A program made the position numbers and the translations under genes. Of a stretch of DNA of 64,000 nt, positions 3 through 6,607 are shown in pieces (within the stretch, counting starts at the first letter, position 1; the number at the start of each line of letters is the position of its first letter). The stretch is from Bacteroidia bacterium (GTDB taxonomy: Bacteria > Bacteroidota > Bacteroidia > SpSt-205), in assembly GCA_025059535.1 (NCBI GenBank), contig JANXCX010000024.1, positions 211,425 through 275,424 of the forward strand. The letters are read 5' to 3'. The notes under the pieces were generated by a model, which was not told where the DNA came from, made no database searches, and saw only the letters and a list, made by a program, of their open reading frames with translations.

Positions 3-1052
3 GTGGGATTTTCTTTAGAGGAGGTGCGATTTTGGGAGCATTTTATTCACTTAGTATTGGATAGTATGATGGTTCAATCGGCGGAGGTGGATTTTCCGTC
101 GGTTTTTGGGATACGGCGCATGGCCGTGCGCGGGATTCCCGAACCCGGTCCCGAAGGCGAGGTGGAGACGGCAGTGATCCTTCTGCAGGATATTACCGAG
201 CTTCGGCACGCCCAAGAGCAGCTACGGCTACAAAATGAGCGCCTAGAGCAGGCTCGGCGCGCCTTAGAAAGCCAAAAGAAAGAGCTGGAGGAGAAGAACC
301 GGGATATTATGGAGAGCATTAGCTATGCGCGGCGCATTCAAGGAGCGCTTTTACCCGGCGAAGCAGGCCTACGCCAGCTTTTTCCGGATAGCTTCCTTCT
401 ACACTGGTTGCGGGACGTAGTGGGAGGTGATTTCTACTGGTATGGGGAAGTGAAGGAGCAGAAGGTAGTAGCGGTAGTAGATTGTACGGGGCATGGAGTG
501 CCTGGCGCTTTTATGACCTTTCTGGGCTATACGCTCTTAGAAGCGGCTATCCGAGAACGCCAGCTTTTAGACCCCGCGCAAATCTTAGGCTTCATGGATA
601 GGCGGCTGCGGGAACTTCTGGCAGGGCAAGAAACAATGCAGGATGGGATGGATGTGGCGTTATGCGTAGTGGATACGCAGCGGCGGGTATTGCGGTTTGC
701 GGGGGCGCATCGGCCGCTCTTACTTTATCGCGAAGGGCGATGGCAGCTCCTCCCGGGCGCGCCAACGGGCTTAGGCGGCGCAACTTGGCTGGATAGCGTG
801 AAAGCTTTCCATACCCATACGCTCACCTTTGAAAAAGGCGATCAGCTCTACCTTTATACCGACGGCTATTTAGACCAATTCAGTGCGGATGGGCAGCGGC
901 GCTACTCGCACCGACGCTTCCGAAATTTCCTTATGACCTGGGGCCATCTGCCTATGGAAGAGCAGCACAGGCTCCTCTTGGAAGAACTGCGTCAGTGGAT
1001 GGGGAATACCCACCCCACGGATGATATTACGGTAATCGGTTTGCGTTTGTGA
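3..1052 (+). CDS. PAS/PAC-coiled-coil-SpoIIE protein phosphatase (5' partial)
   Basis: Probable PP2C-type serine/threonine phosphatase, the SiaA/RsbU-like member of a partner-switch. The reading frame is open to the left edge, so the true start and N-terminal sensor are probably outside the window; a GTG at 3 is only nominal. Visible parts are the end of a PAS/PAC domain (to about residue 68), a coiled coil (about 70-105) and a SpoIIE phosphatase domain to the end. Metal-binding aspartates appear in GGDFYW, DCTGHGVPGAF, YLYTDGYLDQF and the C-terminal PTDDITVIGL. It lies 24 bp upstream of a SiaB-type kinase gene on the same strand, so it is the likely phosphatase for the SiaC proteins downstream. 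That pairing is inferred from context and from the Pseudomonas SiaA/B/C system. Confidence 0.85.
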   Translation: MGFSLEEVRFWEHFIHLVLDSMMVQSAEVDFPSVFGIRRMAVRGIPEPGPEGEVETAVILLQDITELRHAQEQLRLQNERLEQARRALESQKKELEEKNRDIMESISYARRIQGALLPGEAGLRQLFPDSFLLHWLRDVVGGDFYWYGEVKEQKVVAVVDCTGHGVPGAFMTFLGYTLLEAAIRERQLLDPAQILGFMDRRLRELLAGQETMQDGMDVALCVVDTQRRVLRFAGAHRPLLLYREGRWQLLPGAPTGLGGATWLDSVKAFHTHTLTFEKGDQLYLYTDGYLDQFSADGQRRYSHRRFRNFLMTWGHLPMEEQHRLLLEELRQWMGNTHPTDDITVIGLRL

Positions 1053-1076: not shown

Positions 1077-1652
1077 ATGGTAGCTTCCGCCTCTGAGGTT
1101 GCGCCTTCGGCTGCGCTCTTCCACGCCTATCCCCTGTATCGGAACATGCTGGATAACAGCATTGTCTTTATGTATTACGGTCCTATTACCCCCGACCTTA
1201 TCGTGGATATCCTCAACCTCATAGACTATCGGCTTTCCGGGAGTGGCGAAGAGAAACGGATAAGTAAGAAGTTATTCAATATCATGGTTGAATCTCTTTC
1301 GCTAGGTGAAGATGTAAATAGGGGTCATTCGACGCTGCTGGTGCGCCAGTTACCTTATCTTTACACGGTAAGTATTGGCCGACGCATCAATGCGGCGGCC
1401 GTCTATGAGCTCAAGACCTTTATAGACTGGGTAAATATGCTCTCACCCGAGGATTTACGTGAGGCCTACCACCAGCTTCTTCAGCCTCCTACCTCCGCTG
1501 GGCTTCCCACCTCGGTGGCGGATGTACCCTCTATAAGTATCCTAGACCTAGCCCGCAAGTCCAGTGAATATCTAGACTACCTTTTTGAGTATCTAGATGA
1601 AAATGATGCCTTCTTCTCACTAGAAGCGCGAATAAGAAAAAATCATTCATAG
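1077..1652 (+). CDS. SiaB-family protein, degenerate (predicted pseudokinase)
   Basis: Paralogue of the SiaB-type kinase at 2045. Shared landmarks are an N-terminal Y(Y/R)(K/R)NM segment, an acidic SGSGEEKR / EGEGEDRK loop followed by K-F/V-FN-MVE, ARKS near residue 159, and the C-terminal FFSLEAR. SiaB proteins are GHKL-fold kinases. This copy lacks the ATP-binding features. The N-box ExxxN of the sister protein (E59...N63) here reads E72-S-L-S-L76, so the Asn is gone. The glycine-rich G-box (GTAGLGMIDIARKS in the sister) is replaced by SVADVPSISILDLARKS. The protein is 191 aa and uncut, so it is probably a retained regulator rather than debris. A -7 box lies 8 bases upstream; the next gene starts 3 bases after the stop. 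Confidence 0.75.
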   Translation: MVASASEVAPSAALFHAYPLYRNMLDNSIVFMYYGPITPDLIVDILNLIDYRLSGSGEEKRISKKLFNIMVESLSLGEDVNRGHSTLLVRQLPYLYTVSIGRRINAAAVYELKTFIDWVNMLSPEDLREAYHQLLQPPTSAGLPTSVADVPSISILDLARKSSEYLDYLFEYLDENDAFFSLEARIRKNHS

Positions 1653-1655
1653 CCT

Positions 1656-2039
1656 ATGGAGGCCTTGCGGATAGAATCCACACACAAAACCCCGCGGGTC
1701 ATTTTAGACCCAGAGAATGGTATATTTGAGTTTTCGGGGCGCAGCATTCCCGAAGATTCGGTGGGATTTTATGCGCCTATTTTTGAGTGGTTTGACCAGT
1801 ACGCTAAAAATCCCCTGCCCGTTACCCATGTGCGCTTTGATCTTGAATACTTCAACACCAGTAGCTCTAAGAACATCTTAGAGCTTCTCAAGCGGCTAGA
1901 AGCAATCCATGCGGCGGGGCACGAGGTGCGCGTGACATGGTACTATGACGAAGATGATGAAGATATGGAAGAGACAGGCCAGGATTATCAAGCCCTTCTC
2001 AATCTACCCATAGAACTTTCCGTAAAAATCCAATCCTGA
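1656..2039 (+). CDS. SiaC-family regulatory phosphoprotein (DUF1987), copy 1
   Basis: A 127-aa SiaC-like protein. In Pseudomonas, SiaC is phosphorylated by SiaB on Thr68, dephosphorylated by SiaA, and when unphosphorylated activates the diguanylate cyclase SiaD. The hallmark LEYFNTSSSK is present, and its threonine is also residue 68. The N-terminal region (KTPRVILDPE, FSGRSIPED) is conserved with copy 2 at 2626. The C-terminus carries an acidic stretch and ETGQDYQALL, also shared with copy 2. It lies between the two SiaB-type genes, 3 and 5 bases from its neighbours, so co-transcription is very likely. No diguanylate cyclase is visible in the window, so the output partner is unknown. Confidence 0.85.
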   Translation: MEALRIESTHKTPRVILDPENGIFEFSGRSIPEDSVGFYAPIFEWFDQYAKNPLPVTHVRFDLEYFNTSSSKNILELLKRLEAIHAAGHEVRVTWYYDEDDEDMEETGQDYQALLNLPIELSVKIQS

Positions 2040-2044
2040 AGCCT

Positions 2045-2608
2045 ATGAGCATGACATACAGCTACTATAAGAACATGCAGTTGAACAACATCATCTTCGT
2101 ATATCAGGGAGAGGTTACGGCGGATTTAGTATCGTCTATCCTGCAAATGGTAGAGAATAAGCTGGAAGGTGAGGGCGAAGACCGCAAGGTCAAGAAGCGG
2201 GTATTCAACGTAATGGTTGAGTGTTTGCAGAATGTTTATCACCACTTAGACGCTCTTCCACCTACGGATGCCTCCAGCTCGGTGCGCGACAAGACAGCCC
2301 TTCTAATGATTGGACGGGAAGAGCGGGATTACTATATCATCACGGGTAATCATGTGCTAAACGATCGGATTCCCGATCTTAAGGCACGCTTGGACCGCAT
2401 CAATCGCGCAACGAAGGAAGAACTCAAGCAGCTATACCAAGAGATTCTTACAGGTACGGGCTTCAGCGAAAAGGGCACCGCCGGGTTAGGTATGATTGAC
2501 ATCGCGCGTAAGTCTGGTCAGAAACTGGGATACGATTTTCATCCAGTAAATGATAAGTATTCGTTCTTTAGCCTGGAGGCGCGGGTCTCGCGTATCCCTG
2601 AGAAGTAG
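2045..2608 (+). CDS. SiaB-family protein kinase (intact ATP site)
   Basis: A 187-aa GHKL-like kinase of the SiaB family, predicted to phosphorylate SiaC. The N-box VECLQNVYHH carries E59 and N63, and the G-box GTAGLGMIDIARKSG (about 144-158) is intact. These are the motifs missing from the paralogue at 1077. It sits between two siaC-like genes: the start is 5 bases after siaC copy 1, and its stop is 17 bases before siaC copy 2, which has its own -7 box. It may be the only active kinase for both SiaC proteins. Assignment to the family is firm; substrate choice is inference. Confidence 0.85.
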   Translation: MSMTYSYYKNMQLNNIIFVYQGEVTADLVSSILQMVENKLEGEGEDRKVKKRVFNVMVECLQNVYHHLDALPPTDASSSVRDKTALLMIGREERDYYIITGNHVLNDRIPDLKARLDRINRATKEELKQLYQEILTGTGFSEKGTAGLGMIDIARKSGQKLGYDFHPVNDKYSFFSLEARVSRIPEK

Positions 2609-2625: not shown

Positions 2626-3000
2626 ATGCGAAATCTCGTCATAGAGCCTACCTCTAAAACCCCGAAGGTTATCCTAAATGCCGACTTAGGGGTATTTGAG
2701 ATCACAGGACGCAGCATTCCCGAGGATGCGATTGGATTTTATCGGCGGGTACTGGACTGGATAGAGGAATACAGCAAAAGTCCTCTTACTGAGACGGTAT
2801 TCAAGTTCCAACTTGAATACTTCAATACCAGCTCCTCTAAATGCCTGCTGGATATTTTTCGCAAGTTGGAGCGGATGCACAAAAATGGGCATAAGGTGGT
2901 CATTCGCTGGCATTACGATGCGGACGACGAAGACATGGCCGAGACAGGTCAGGACTACCAGGCGCTCTTAGATGTGCCTTTTGAACTGGTGCCTGTATGA
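2626..3000 (+). CDS. SiaC-family regulatory phosphoprotein (DUF1987), copy 2
   Basis: A 124-aa paralogue of the SiaC-like protein at 1656. The phosphosite motif LEYFNTSSSK is conserved with Thr68 at the same number as in copy 1. TSKTPKVILN, FEITGRSIPED and the C-terminal AETGQDYQALLDVPFEL also match copy 1, so the pair arose by duplication. The sequences have clearly diverged outside these blocks, so this is not a recent copy. The stop overlaps the ATG of the next gene (ATGA), which couples it to the coiled-coil membrane protein at 2997. Confidence 0.85.
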   Translation: MRNLVIEPTSKTPKVILNADLGVFEITGRSIPEDAIGFYRRVLDWIEEYSKSPLTETVFKFQLEYFNTSSSKCLLDIFRKLERMHKNGHKVVIRWHYDADDEDMAETGQDYQALLDVPFELVPV

Positions 3001-3458
3001 GCACCAAGGAATCCTACTTTGCTGAGGAGACTACCTTTCTGCTGGAGGCTCGGCAGCGTGCCGAGAAAGGGCAATCTACCACGGAAGAATGGCGCCAAGC
3101 CTATGGCCTACTCATAGAAAAGTATGAGGAATTGCTCAAGGTAGTCCAAGTGCTCACCCATCAGGCTACTCAATTAGAGGCTAAGTTAGAAAAAGCGCGC
3201 ACCCAGCTGGAAATCCAGAAAAAGGCGCTAAGTTCAGAGGTAGAGGGCTTAGAGCGGCAGCTCCAAGTACAGCAAAAAGAAATAACTAAAAAGGCCCAAG
3301 AGCGGGATATCTTATACGACCGAATGAGTCAGACCCGCATGATGCTGCTGGTGATTTTGGCTGTCCTACTCTTAGTTGTAGGCTTCACCCTGTATTACTT
3401 ATTCTGGGACACGGATCGCATGATACAATTCGTGAAAAAAGTACGAGGCCTTGAATAG
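2997..3458 (+). CDS. Coiled-coil single-pass membrane protein, paralogue 1
   Basis: A 153-aa protein with no recognised enzymatic domain. It has an acidic helical N-terminus (to about 30), then a YGLLIEKYEELLKVVQVLT segment like the linkers found next to signalling output domains, a long coiled coil (about 50-112), one hydrophobic membrane segment (about 115-136) and a short basic cytoplasm-like tail ending RMIQFVKKVRGLE. It is translationally coupled to siaC copy 2 by ATGA. The next gene encodes a paralogue with the same layout. By position it is a candidate partner or target of SiaC, but nothing in the sequence proves this. Confidence 0.7.
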   Translation: MSTKESYFAEETTFLLEARQRAEKGQSTTEEWRQAYGLLIEKYEELLKVVQVLTHQATQLEAKLEKARTQLEIQKKALSSEVEGLERQLQVQQKEITKKAQERDILYDRMSQTRMMLLVILAVLLLVVGFTLYYLFWDTDRMIQFVKKVRGLE

Positions 3459-3476
3459 CTGGTGCCCGATACTTCT

Positions 3477-3484
3477 TACATTTG
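3477..3484 (+). promoter_or_regulatory. -7 box TACATTTG, coiled-coil paralogue 2
   Basis: Perfect TAnnTTTG ending 7 bases before the ATG at 3492, in a 33-bp intergenic gap. Confidence 0.55.
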
Positions 3485-3491
3485 TTAAGCT

Positions 3492-3968
3492 ATGGCTAAT
3501 GTAGGAAGCGGTAAGCGTGAGCTTTTTGCGGAGGAGCTTCAGCTTCTGGAGGAAGCGCGCCTTATCCTTGCTCGCATAGATCTTACCGAAGCCCAATGGC
3601 AGCAAGAGTACAAGCGACTTGTAGAGGAATATGAAAAGTTGTTGGGTGAAGCCCGAACCCTCACGCGTATAGCCGACCGCAATCAGCGCCGGCTGGACGA
3701 AATGAATGCCGAATTGGAAAGGCAAACGCAGCTCCTCAAGCAAAAAGAAGAAGAAGCTAAAAAAGCCCAAAAAGCTATTCTCCATAACCGCGAGCGCATT
3801 GAAAAAGAACAAGCCGAGATTGATAAACGCGTCGGGTATGTGCAAATAGCCGTAGTAGTGATGATAGCCGTGCTCGTAGTTGTGATTCTTTTCATGCTTT
3901 ATTACCTCATTTTCAGCCCCTATACGGCGATAGAGATGATGGAACAAATCAAGAAGATACGTGGCTGA
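3492..3968 (+). CDS. Coiled-coil single-pass membrane protein, paralogue 2
   Basis: A 158-aa paralogue of the protein at 2997. Both begin with an acidic segment containing FAEE...LLEEAR, then a linker YKRLVEEYEKLLGEARTLTR, a coiled coil (about 62-112), a single hydrophobic segment (about 117-140) and a short tail ending EQIKKIRG. The linker with LTRIADRNQRRL resembles the helical connectors of SpoIIE, GGDEF and cyclase proteins, but the catalytic domain is absent. It has its own -7 box 7 bases upstream and is followed after 3 bases by a secreted-protein gene. Function unknown; a scaffold or membrane anchor for the SiaBC system is an inference. Confidence 0.7.
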   Translation: MANVGSGKRELFAEELQLLEEARLILARIDLTEAQWQQEYKRLVEEYEKLLGEARTLTRIADRNQRRLDEMNAELERQTQLLKQKEEEAKKAQKAILHNRERIEKEQAEIDKRVGYVQIAVVVMIAVLVVVILFMLYYLIFSPYTAIEMMEQIKKIRG

Positions 3969-3971
3969 TTC

Positions 3972-4570
3972 ATGGTATCTGCGGCGTGGGTGTGGCTCAC
4001 TCTATTCGGCCTCCCAGATAGTAGTCGGCCTGGGGTGTGGCGATGGATAAGTACGGAGGTACAGGCTAATAAAATTTGCGGCCGCATTTCGGTTAAAACG
4101 ATAGAGTGGCCAGCCTTTGTAATTCTTCAGGAGAGCGTTGCCGTAGAAACCTGGCGCGAGGTGCGACGCGTTTTTATTGACCGCTGGACTCTACCCAAAG
4201 AGTATAGCCTTTGCTGGAATGGCGGCCAAATCGGCAAGAAGGTACGCTTCGTTATTACCCTCTCTACGAGACCGAAGCCTTCCTACTTTGTGCTTTGGGA
4301 GGGTTATCCATGGGGGCGCATACCTTTGCCACCTGTTATCCATTTTAGGGAAACTAAGCCCCCCGCTCTCCACTTAGACTTCCCAGATCCAGGCCAGTAT
4401 GTGATGCGCTGCTATAACCGCTTTGGGGAAGAGGTTTTTACTATTCCCTTTGACCTTACGCATCCGACCCAGTTTGATTACATGCTTCCCCCCCAAATGC
4501 GGGGAAATTACCTCATACAGGTGTATAGCTTAGAGCTTAAGCGTGTCGTAGCCGAAAAGGGGATTAGATT

Positions 4571-4574
<4 letters not shown>
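3972..4574 (+). CDS. Secreted protein, possible type IX sorting domain
   Basis: A 200-aa protein I do not recognise. The N-terminus (MVSAAWVWLTLFGLPDS) resembles a short signal peptide. The last 65-70 residues look like a type IX secretion C-terminal domain: a beta-rich PGQYVMRCYNRFGEEVFTIPF, then PPQMRGNYLIQVYS, ending VVAEKGIRL. That is the usual YNxxGxxV...GxYxxxV...K pattern. The middle (about 40-130) has alternating beta-like strands. The ATG lies 3 bases after the coiled-coil gene, and its stop overlaps the next ATG by four bases, so it is in the same transcription unit. The sorting-domain call is by pattern only and needs a profile search. Confidence 0.5.
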
Positions 4575-5446: not shown

Positions 5447-6062
5447 TCCGTACCAGGAAAATACTTACCTGCTTATAGGTTCAGGCGGGCGGGGATGGGT
5501 AATTGATCCAGGTTTTTATACGCTAGAGGAGCGGCAGGCCTTTCAGACTATTCTCTCAGAGGAGAAAGTACAGCTTGAGGGCGTATATCTAACGCATGCC
5601 CATATTGACCACATTTTAGGCGTGGCTTGGGTAGCGGCTACGTATGGGGTGCCGGTTTTCTACCATAGGGCAGAAGAGGTGGTCTATCGGCATGCGGCCG
5701 AATGGGCCAGTTATGTAGGTCTGAGGTACGAAGCCGGCCCCGCACCCCAGCGCTACTTGGAAGCAGGGGAGCGGCTTTTATTAGATGGCGAGCCGATTGA
5801 AGTGCTGTATGTGCCGGGCCATTCGCCTGGTCATGTGGCCTTCTATCTCCCTGACTCCAAATGGGTAATCTCAGGGGATGTACTGTTTCGGGGCAGTATC
5901 GGGAATTACGAGCTACCTTTGGCGGACTACGCCACGCTGATGCGTTCGCTTAGGGAAGTGATGCTGCAGCTGGAGCCCGAGACCGTGGTGTGGCCGGGTC
6001 ATGGGGATTCCACCACGATCGGCTACGAGCGCCAGACGAACCCCTTCTTAGTACCTGCATGA
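5421..6062 (+). CDS. MBL-fold metallo-hydrolase, glyoxalase II-like
   Basis: A 213-aa metallo-beta-lactamase-fold hydrolase. Zinc ligands are in THAHIDH (H59, H61, D63, H64), PGHSPGHVAFY, SGDVLF and the C-terminal WPGHGDSTTIGYERQTNPFL. This layout is typical of the hydroxyacylglutathione-hydrolase-like YcbL group of Bacteroidota, whose substrates are mostly unproven thioesters. The ATG at 5421 lies inside the 3' end of the dehydrogenase gene. The next gene starts with ATGA over its stop, so the two are coupled. Confidence 0.85.
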
Positions 6063-6607
6063 AGTATCAGGTGGAGGAGCTTGAGGAGGGGGTAGTGTTT
6101 CGCCCTATGGAGGAGGTCCTGAGCGCCGCGCATACCCCTCAGCTTAAGGCACGGTTTACCCTCCTAGCGCACAGTCATACGGGGGGCGTGGTAATAGACC
6201 TGTCTCAAGTTCGGACGCTGGATAGCTCCGTCCTTAGTGCGCTTCTCCTCTTGCGGCGCATTTTAGGGGAAAGCGGCCGGCCTCTAGCGATCGTAGCCCC
6301 TACTCCAGCCGTTCAGCATATATTTGCCCTTGCCAAACTCAACGAAATCTTCACGCTTATGCCAACAATAGAAGAAGCCTTAGCGTACCTGCAGAAGCAG
6401 GTAGACTTGACAGCTAAACGCGCTGAGGAAGAAGAAATGATGGAAGAGGAAGAATTAGAAGAAGACTGGGAGGAAGAGGAGCTGGAGGACTGGGAGGAGG
6501 AGGATTGGGAAGAAGAAGAAGAATGGGATGAGGAGGATTGGGAGGAAGACTGGGAGGACATTGAGGAGGAGGAGTGGGAGAGTGAAGAAGAGGAGGAAGA
6601 AGGCTAA
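6059..6607 (+). CDS. STAS-domain anti-anti-sigma-like protein with acidic Trp-rich tail
   Basis: A 182-aa protein. Residues 1-115 form a STAS domain like SpoIIAA/RsbV, with the expected phosphorylation motif LDSSVLSA (Ser56/Ser57) after the IDLSQVRTLDSS strand. From about residue 122 to the end it becomes almost pure Glu/Asp with seven evenly scattered Trp (DW or EW units). I chose ATG 6059 because it overlaps the previous stop (ATGA) and begins exactly at the domain; a longer frame from 5990 would add unrelated residues. It lies 6 bases before the RNase Z gene. STAS genes beside RNase Z are familiar to me in Bacteroidota, but the tail is unusual. Its kinase and phosphatase partners may include the SpoIIE proteins of this window. 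Confidence 0.8.
   Translation: MKYQVEELEEGVVFRPMEEVLSAAHTPQLKARFTLLAHSHTGGVVIDLSQVRTLDSSVLSALLLLRRILGESGRPLAIVAPTPAVQHIFALAKLNEIFTLMPTIEEALAYLQKQVDLTAKRAEEEEMMEEEELEEDWEEEELEDWEEEDWEEEEEWDEEDWEEDWEDIEEEEWESEEEEEEG
6424..6606 (+). repeat. Polypurine low-complexity tract coding the acidic tail
   Basis: About 180 bases that are almost only G and A on the plus strand, built from variants of gaggaag and gactgggag. The strong strand asymmetry follows from Glu, Asp and Trp codons and could favour slippage or triplex formation. Confidence 0.7.

Follow-up and report, generated by a model that had tools for sequence, protein, structure and literature searches.

Enzyme-less membrane coiled-coil proteins as probable targets of SiaC in a SiaABC operon of a Bacteroidia bacterium

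The DNA analysed here, referred to below as the window, is a stretch of 64,000 nucleotides from a Bacteroidia bacterium whose assembly comprises 1,915,500 bases (GCA_025059535.1, contig JANXCX010000024.1, positions 211,425 to 275,424). At its 5' end lie, in this order, the genes for a SiaA-like SpoIIE phosphatase, SiaB1, SiaC1, SiaB2, SiaC2 and two small proteins, CC1 and CC2 (Table 1). All the parts of a SiaABC partner-switching module are present, namely a SpoIIE phosphatase, a SiaB kinase (intact in SiaB2, degenerate in SiaB1) and SiaC with its NTS phosphosite. The phosphatase gene starts upstream of the window; the entire gene (L063:5754-8477) encodes 907 residues with a membrane, GAF, PAS and SpoIIE architecture, and its part within the window is matched by the NCBIfam SiaA model at 1.2e-59 (202 bits, below the model's cut-off of 700 bits). 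SiaB2 retains both the N-box (VECLQN) and the G-box (GTAGLG). In the alignment of SiaB1 from two members of the genus (including G005; second aligned SiaB1 at L065:6109-6687), the N-box region is missing, leaving a 13-residue gap, and the G-box glycines are lost; in other families, SiaB1 retains the N-box and has G-boxes of the GLTxLG type. SiaB1 is probably a pseudokinase, judged from this alignment, and a conserved putative pseudokinase adjoins an intact kinase. SiaC2 matches the Pseudomonas aeruginosa SiaC chain of 6kkp/7e6g (E 1.5e-17), and the N-T-S triplet is kept in SiaC1, SiaC2 and SiaC3; several of the residues by which P. aeruginosa SiaC touches SiaD (I71, D79, R103, L107 and D114) differ in the host SiaCs. 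A fourth, divergent SiaC-like host protein (L166:3402-3797; G000:C25:80919-81152) has no SiaB gene within its 7-kb stretch. After CC2 follows an ORF (3972-4574) that is conserved in the genus, looks like a secreted protein and matches nothing in Pfam or NCBIfam at E 0.1; further on, an ORF also found in G005 (5990-6607) has a STAS-like start and then a long E/W/D repeat tail (DWEEEEEWDEEDWEE...).

Table 1. Genes and protein features at the 5' end of the window (window coordinates)
Feature	Position	Strand	Detail
SiaA-like SpoIIE/PP2C phosphatase, C-terminal part	3..1052	+	Pfam SpoIIE 2.5e-26
SiaB1, SiaB-family protein	1077..1652	+	NCBIfam SiaB family 9.2e-21, below cut-off
SiaC1, phospho-switch protein	1656..2039	+	Pfam SiaC 7.9e-42; YFNTSS phosphosite kept
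SiaB2, kinase	2045..2608	+	NCBIfam SiaB family 7.3e-51, above cut-off
SiaC2, phospho-switch protein	2626..3000	+	Pfam SiaC 6.4e-43; YFNTSS kept
CC1	2997..3458	+	153 aa; putative docking region, long helix, one membrane segment, no enzyme
CC1 motif LTHQATQLE, residues 53-61	3153..3179	+	altered at the SiaD D83 position
CC1 membrane segment, best 19-residue window, residues 115-133	3339..3395	+	mean hydropathy 2.84
CC2	3492..3968	+	158 aa; putative docking region, long helix, one membrane segment, no enzyme
CC2 motif LTRIADRNQ, residues 57-65	3660..3686	+	counterpart of SiaD SiaC-contact motif R80-I-S-D-R-Y-Q86
CC2 membrane segment, best 19-residue window, residues 119-137	3846..3902	+	mean hydropathy 3.33

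The first-pass annotation, made from the letters of the window, had described CC1 and CC2 as paralogous helical proteins with one C-terminal membrane segment, a short tail and no catalytic domain, CC1 being translationally coupled to SiaC2, and this portrait holds. The two proteins are 33% identical over query residues 3-151 (E 7.8e-14), each has a single strongly hydrophobic segment near the C-terminus, and the short tails end in ..KKVRGLE or ..KKIRG. The AlphaFold2 model of CC2, from an alignment of 30 rows, has a mean pLDDT of 90.2 and a pTM of 0.52, with helices at residues 5-11, 13-27, 33-141 and 143-157, that is, a long helix preceded by a two-helix hairpin and followed by a short tail helix. 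No Pfam or NCBIfam model scored above its curated cut-off for either protein, single-protein scans against both collections returned weak coiled-coil matches only, and no enzymatic domain was detected by them. The acidic N-terminus that had also been proposed needs qualification: acidic residues do exceed basic ones, and the excess is mild, since the first 30 residues hold six of the former and four of the latter in each protein. The CC1 ATG overlaps the SiaC2 stop by 4 nt, identically in all 11 genus genomes examined. Both CC genes were found in all 11 genus genomes searched, so the pair is not a chance occurrence; a tblastn search of plasmids with CC1 gave no match.

A resemblance of these proteins to SiaD was initially suggested by the NCBIfam SiaD model, the match of which to CC2 (E 0.0058; over the set, no better than SMC models) is too weak by itself and was discarded as sufficient evidence. 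Stronger comparisons came from proteins encoded next to siaC elsewhere. Nineteen plasmid records with siaC were listed and eight of them, some unannotated, were opened: a docking-region diguanylate cyclase, a histidine kinase or both follow siaC in six, and no docking-region protein follows it in the records of Bernardetia and Persicobacter (both Bacteroidota). Two alignments were made, one of the CC stalk (A2) and one of seven N-termini of SiaC-adjacent outputs from Proteobacteria (A3), which hhalign joins with a probability of 96.8% (E 2.1e-10, 68 columns), co-linear over CC2 residues 8 to 75. When the A2 profile was run over 333 ORFs of the plasmid stretches, eight SiaC-adjacent output ORFs from six loci ranked first (E 3.9e-12 to 8.1e-5, one of them having an over-long mechanical start), the next ORF being at 0.16. 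Conversely, the best 60 matches listed for A3 among 1495 Bacteroidota ORFs were all CC family, and in 100 whole genomes 29 of its 30 matches were CC family, the other being a small ORF with a coiled coil, next to a zapA-like gene (names given by eye). Within the host genome A3 found only CC2 (2.2e-8) and CC3 (2.7e-4), a third family member described below, and CC1 was not matched. Pairwise, CC2 aligns with a SiaC-adjacent diguanylate cyclase of Variovorax (29% over 72 aa, E 1e-5); CC1 by itself matched none of the SiaC-adjacent output proteins. A profile of 30 catalytic members without CC rows did reach both proteins (CC2 at 1.6e-18, CC1 at 1.6e-7), and recovered 48 distinct CC-family ORFs of the 1495, with the CC1 of the window last and the next ORF at 0.47; its 23 Bacteroidota rows had been found via a profile containing CC sequences (A4, below) and its seven plasmid rows via SiaC, the L175 row was trimmed at a wrong position, and the L182 row comes from a GGDEF gene that the assembly interrupts.

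The best match of A3 among 177,635 PDB sequences is P. aeruginosa SiaD as crystallised with SiaC (7e6g, E 4.6e-8), in an alignment that takes in both SiaC-binding stretches, the second of which reads KVARISDRYQQMMRD. With the CC profile itself, a PDB search at E 10 did not recover SiaD, nor did searches with two single N-termini of SiaC-adjacent diguanylate cyclases, so that the sequence tie of the CC proteins to SiaD goes through the A3 profile. Fold comparison adds nothing to it, as the CC2 model had no Foldseek match in the PDB. The homology covers the N-terminal helices and the start of the stalk, and by these profile comparisons the first ~75 residues of CC1 and CC2, a short helical hairpin plus the beginning of the long helix, are homologous to the SiaC docking region of the SiaD type. 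The similarity could in principle be that of one coiled coil to another, CC1 and CC2 being ordinary coiled-coil membrane proteins co-transcribed by chance: long coiled coils yield spurious matches, and weak, unrelated coiled-coil matches did appear in the searches. This reading is strongly disfavoured, as the similarity also covers the non-coiled hairpin, co-linear from residue ~8, is specific against the 333 and 1495 background ORFs and in the 100 genomes, and belongs to a region that tracks SiaC in two genome samples (see below).

The residues used by SiaD within this region point in the same direction for CC2. As reported in PMC8457831, SiaC T68 contacts SiaD S82 and Q86, SiaC N67, S69 and Y65 contact Q86 and D83, the two proteins bind with a Kd of 49.8 nM, and binding is prevented by T68 phosphorylation or by the N67A/T68A/S69A change. 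CC2 RIADRNQ aligns with SiaD RISDRYQ, and the small-D-x-x-Q motif (SiaD S82, D83 and Q86) appears as A61-D62-R63-N64-Q65 in 11 of 11 species. The CC1 counterpart is HQATQLE (exact in 8/11 species), with A-T-Q-L-E in place of the motif in the window; the D83 position is occupied by T in 10 of the 11 species and by D in one, and the Q86 position by E in all. The motif window is nevertheless the most conserved part of both proteins (0.99 in CC2 and 0.94 in CC1, over 11 species). In a census of 66 representatives filtered to no more than 80% identity, every one has S, G or A at the S82 position, the D83 position holds D in 59, T in six and N in one, and the Q86 position holds Q in 51 and E in 15.

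CC2 might accordingly be the SiaC target by itself, CC1 having lost SiaC binding to become a merely structural partner in a mixed coiled coil, or binding a different switch protein. We regard this as possible, though we lean against it. The replacement of D83 by T within a stretch that is still the best conserved of CC1 would fit such a history, as would the tree, in which the CC1 sequences form one long-branched clade attached to the general one-helix family; on the other hand, E at the Q86 position is shared with other one-helix proteins in which this is the sole stalk, and one species keeps D at the D83 position. In the docking-family tree (90 columns, few for its 72 rows; two histidine kinases carry the label 'other' there, and L182 the label '1TM'), CC1 forms one clade (100/100) within the general one-helix group, at 99/90 with its nearest member, and CC2 forms its own clade (100/100) with an uncertain placement. 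From these positions CC1 looks like the positional orthologue, and CC2 does not look like a simple recent copy.

The host genome contains a third member of the family, CC3 (L064:7471-8025), in a separate siaB-siaC-CC3 operon and with an intact D-x-x-Q motif (LTRMGDRLQ). Like CC1 and CC2, CC3 and many other relatives with a two-helix anchor, likewise in siaB-siaC-CC3 operons, have the docking region and coiled coil and no enzyme; unlike them, they are anchored by two membrane segments, which come with a K-P-[IL]-E stretch. The two-helix C-terminal part of CC3-type proteins is an unannotated membrane module. This part, with K-P-[IL]-E or a similar stretch, also terminates a response-regulator protein and two TPR proteins (L113:2659-3297, L096:1366-2778 and L097:463-1935).

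The distribution of the family was examined by searching 395 genomes of the class with the 13-member profile A1. Strong enzyme-less genes, at E 1e-17 or better, number 57 and come from 24 genomes in 12 genera. The E 1e-17 split was picked after seeing the match list, and 15 of the 39 matched genomes, with matches only between E ~4e-6 and 1e-3, were dropped; the five weak-match loci inspected (L094-L098) contain a 66-aa ORF in one case and large unrelated ORFs in the other four, among which two TPR proteins share only the two-helix membrane part, and the remaining weak matches were treated alike. SiaC is present in all 24 genomes with strong CC genes, compared with 212/395 genomes and 88/197 genera overall (Fisher p 1.7e-7 by genome, the genomes not being independent, and 4.1e-5 by genus), and 50 of the 57 genes sit in a siaB-siaC operon, the seven unlinked ones being at G059:C75, G240:C117, G012:C101, G012:C371 (contig start), G051:C86, G090:C307 and G123:C177. 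The first-pass annotation had called for a co-occurrence check with SiaB/SiaC and had named homologues mostly without SiaC neighbours as one of two outcomes that would refute it; the opposite was found, and the other such outcome, a conserved enzymatic domain, was not seen in CC1 or CC2 either. Its proposal that the pair is the output of the SiaBC module stands in part: that the pair is targeted by SiaC is very probable, given the SiaD-type N-terminus and an operon linkage of homologues that extends far past this genus, no enzyme is attached, and the supposed match between two CC proteins and two SiaCs fails. One single one-helix protein follows the SiaB1-C1-B2-C2 set in families f65 (two genomes), f71, f76 and f67, and therefore two SiaCs do not require two outputs; 'one output per SiaC' is ruled out by these four families, and the altered motif of CC1 also speaks against the number match. 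Nor does the linkage hold strictly: of the 30 best SiaC loci in relatives, 28 are without a CC-type gene within 1.5 kb, and many SiaBC pairs therefore use something else or an unlinked target.

The second sample comprised 395 genomes of the phylum and was searched with the 30-row profile A4 at an E limit of 1e-8 that had been fixed beforehand. Matches occur in 14 genomes, and outside the host they amount to 24 genes in 13 genomes of other classes: 11 histidine kinases, seven class III cyclases, three GGDEF proteins, one GGDEF gene broken in the assembly, one SpoIIE phosphatase and one two-helix membrane protein (domains confirmed by Pfam for 7/24 and read by eye for the others). Fourteen of these 24 genes lie within 1.5 kb of siaC, and SiaC was found in 13/14 matched genomes against a background of 22/395 (p 9e-18 by genome; by genus, 7/8, p 3.5e-8). 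The exception, G624, has a docking-region class III cyclase (L180:1462-2385) and no SiaC match in a genome that is 97% complete.

As to what such proteins could do in the host, several candidates were discarded. Pfam found no GGDEF domain in CC1, CC2 or the host genome (the same search being positive in 8/14 genomes), in agreement with the earlier observation that no diguanylate cyclase is visible; the P. aeruginosa-type output is therefore unavailable, and a diguanylate cyclase is ruled out as the host output. A chemoreceptor identity for CC1 and CC2 is ruled out as well, no MCPsignal domain being found in them or in the host genome. In three families, SiaA/SiaB genes have a CheR-CheB pair encoded upstream of them, at L063:3854-5265 (which precedes the window), L109:1442-2881 and L110:192-1658. 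The CC proteins could then be methylated coiled-coil adaptors that replace chemoreceptors as substrates of this orphan pair, given that it lies upstream in the same cluster in the host genus, f65 and f71, that the cluster CheR is the only CheR found in the genome, and that no MCP domain was found. We hold this to be very improbable: the short docking proteins scanned have no strict match to what we take to be the MCP-type methylation consensus, which rules them out as clear CheR substrates, the coiled coil of SiaA itself is an equally good candidate, and f76 is without CheR-CheB in the stretch fetched.

The CC proteins might also be no output at all, serving instead as a membrane anchor or sink that holds unphosphorylated SiaC near SiaA or titrates it away from another, unlinked target. 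A docking region with nothing catalytic attached would suit this role, SiaA is a membrane protein, and CC genes outnumber SiaC genes in G051, G090 and G123 (two CC, one SiaC). We nonetheless find it unlikely, because the docking region of the other members always leads into an effector, and because CC1, CC2 and CC3 are the only docking-region proteins found in the host, which leaves no further candidate for the real target.

Taken together, we think it likely, on sequence grounds, that CC1 and CC2 are enzyme-less, membrane-anchored members of a SiaC-target family and carry the docking region that SiaC uses on SiaD; both are very probably targets of SiaC. SiaC-type (DUF1987) proteins have been suggested to modulate adjacent proteins (PMC8457831). 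The simplest reading would be that SiaC docks on the CC2 stalk as it does on SiaD, with a mechanical or positional consequence at the membrane; SiaC binding, phosphorylation control, dimerisation and everything downstream are what we infer for this pair. Signals would arrive at the SiaA-type phosphatase; SiaB2, and not SiaB1, would phosphorylate SiaC on the NTSS threonine, and SiaA would strip this phosphate. Unphosphorylated SiaC would then dock on the CC2 stalk at the conserved small-Asp-x-x-Gln motif and clamp a pair of stalks together, at the inner membrane, as a parallel coiled coil. The output would be the assembled or released stalk, borne by its single membrane helix, either through SiaC and its partners being held at the membrane or through a changed pairing of the membrane helices. 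CC1, beside SiaC2 and with a motif that is altered yet conserved, may be a specialised partner, e.g., one that forms a heterodimer with CC2, or a stalk adapted to one of the SiaCs.

A broader proposal, to which we give about even chances, is that of a general, unannotated SiaC docking region by which one phospho-switch serves many outputs, the Bacteroidota version being a phosphorylation-controlled, SiaC-gated membrane coiled coil with no enzyme or second messenger. No paper describing CC-type proteins was found in the full-text SiaC/SiaB/DUF1987 literature, among openly licensed papers. SiaB-SiaC pairs are common in Bacteroidota (the 212 genomes of the class given above), many of them without a known output, and the docking region would offer a sequence handle for their targets. 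The statement that SiaC activates one diguanylate cyclase would become a general rule, with one docking region, several catalytic outputs and one enzyme-less membrane form, and the role of SiaBC in genomes without c-di-GMP enzymes becomes directly testable.

Among known systems and relatives, the docking-region class III cyclases, histidine kinases and SpoIIE phosphatase of other Bacteroidota classes (L169-L193) share the docking region of CC1 and CC2 and, unlike them, carry catalytic domains. The SiaC-adjacent histidine kinase of Azospirillum (L115:4396-5298, L120:4414-5349) has the same region directly after siaC, and its output is HisKA-HATPase, where CC1 and CC2 have a membrane anchor instead. 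The diguanylate cyclase SiaD belongs to the P. aeruginosa SiaABCD system (7e6g, PMC8457831), and with it CC2 shares the N-terminal helices, the long stalk helix, the contact motif and a gene downstream of siaC. CC1 and CC2 differ from SiaD in having no GGDEF domain and a membrane helix after the stalk, and the CC proteins have one motif where SiaD has two, so that a 2:2 rather than a 2:4 stoichiometry would be expected for the CC-SiaC complex.
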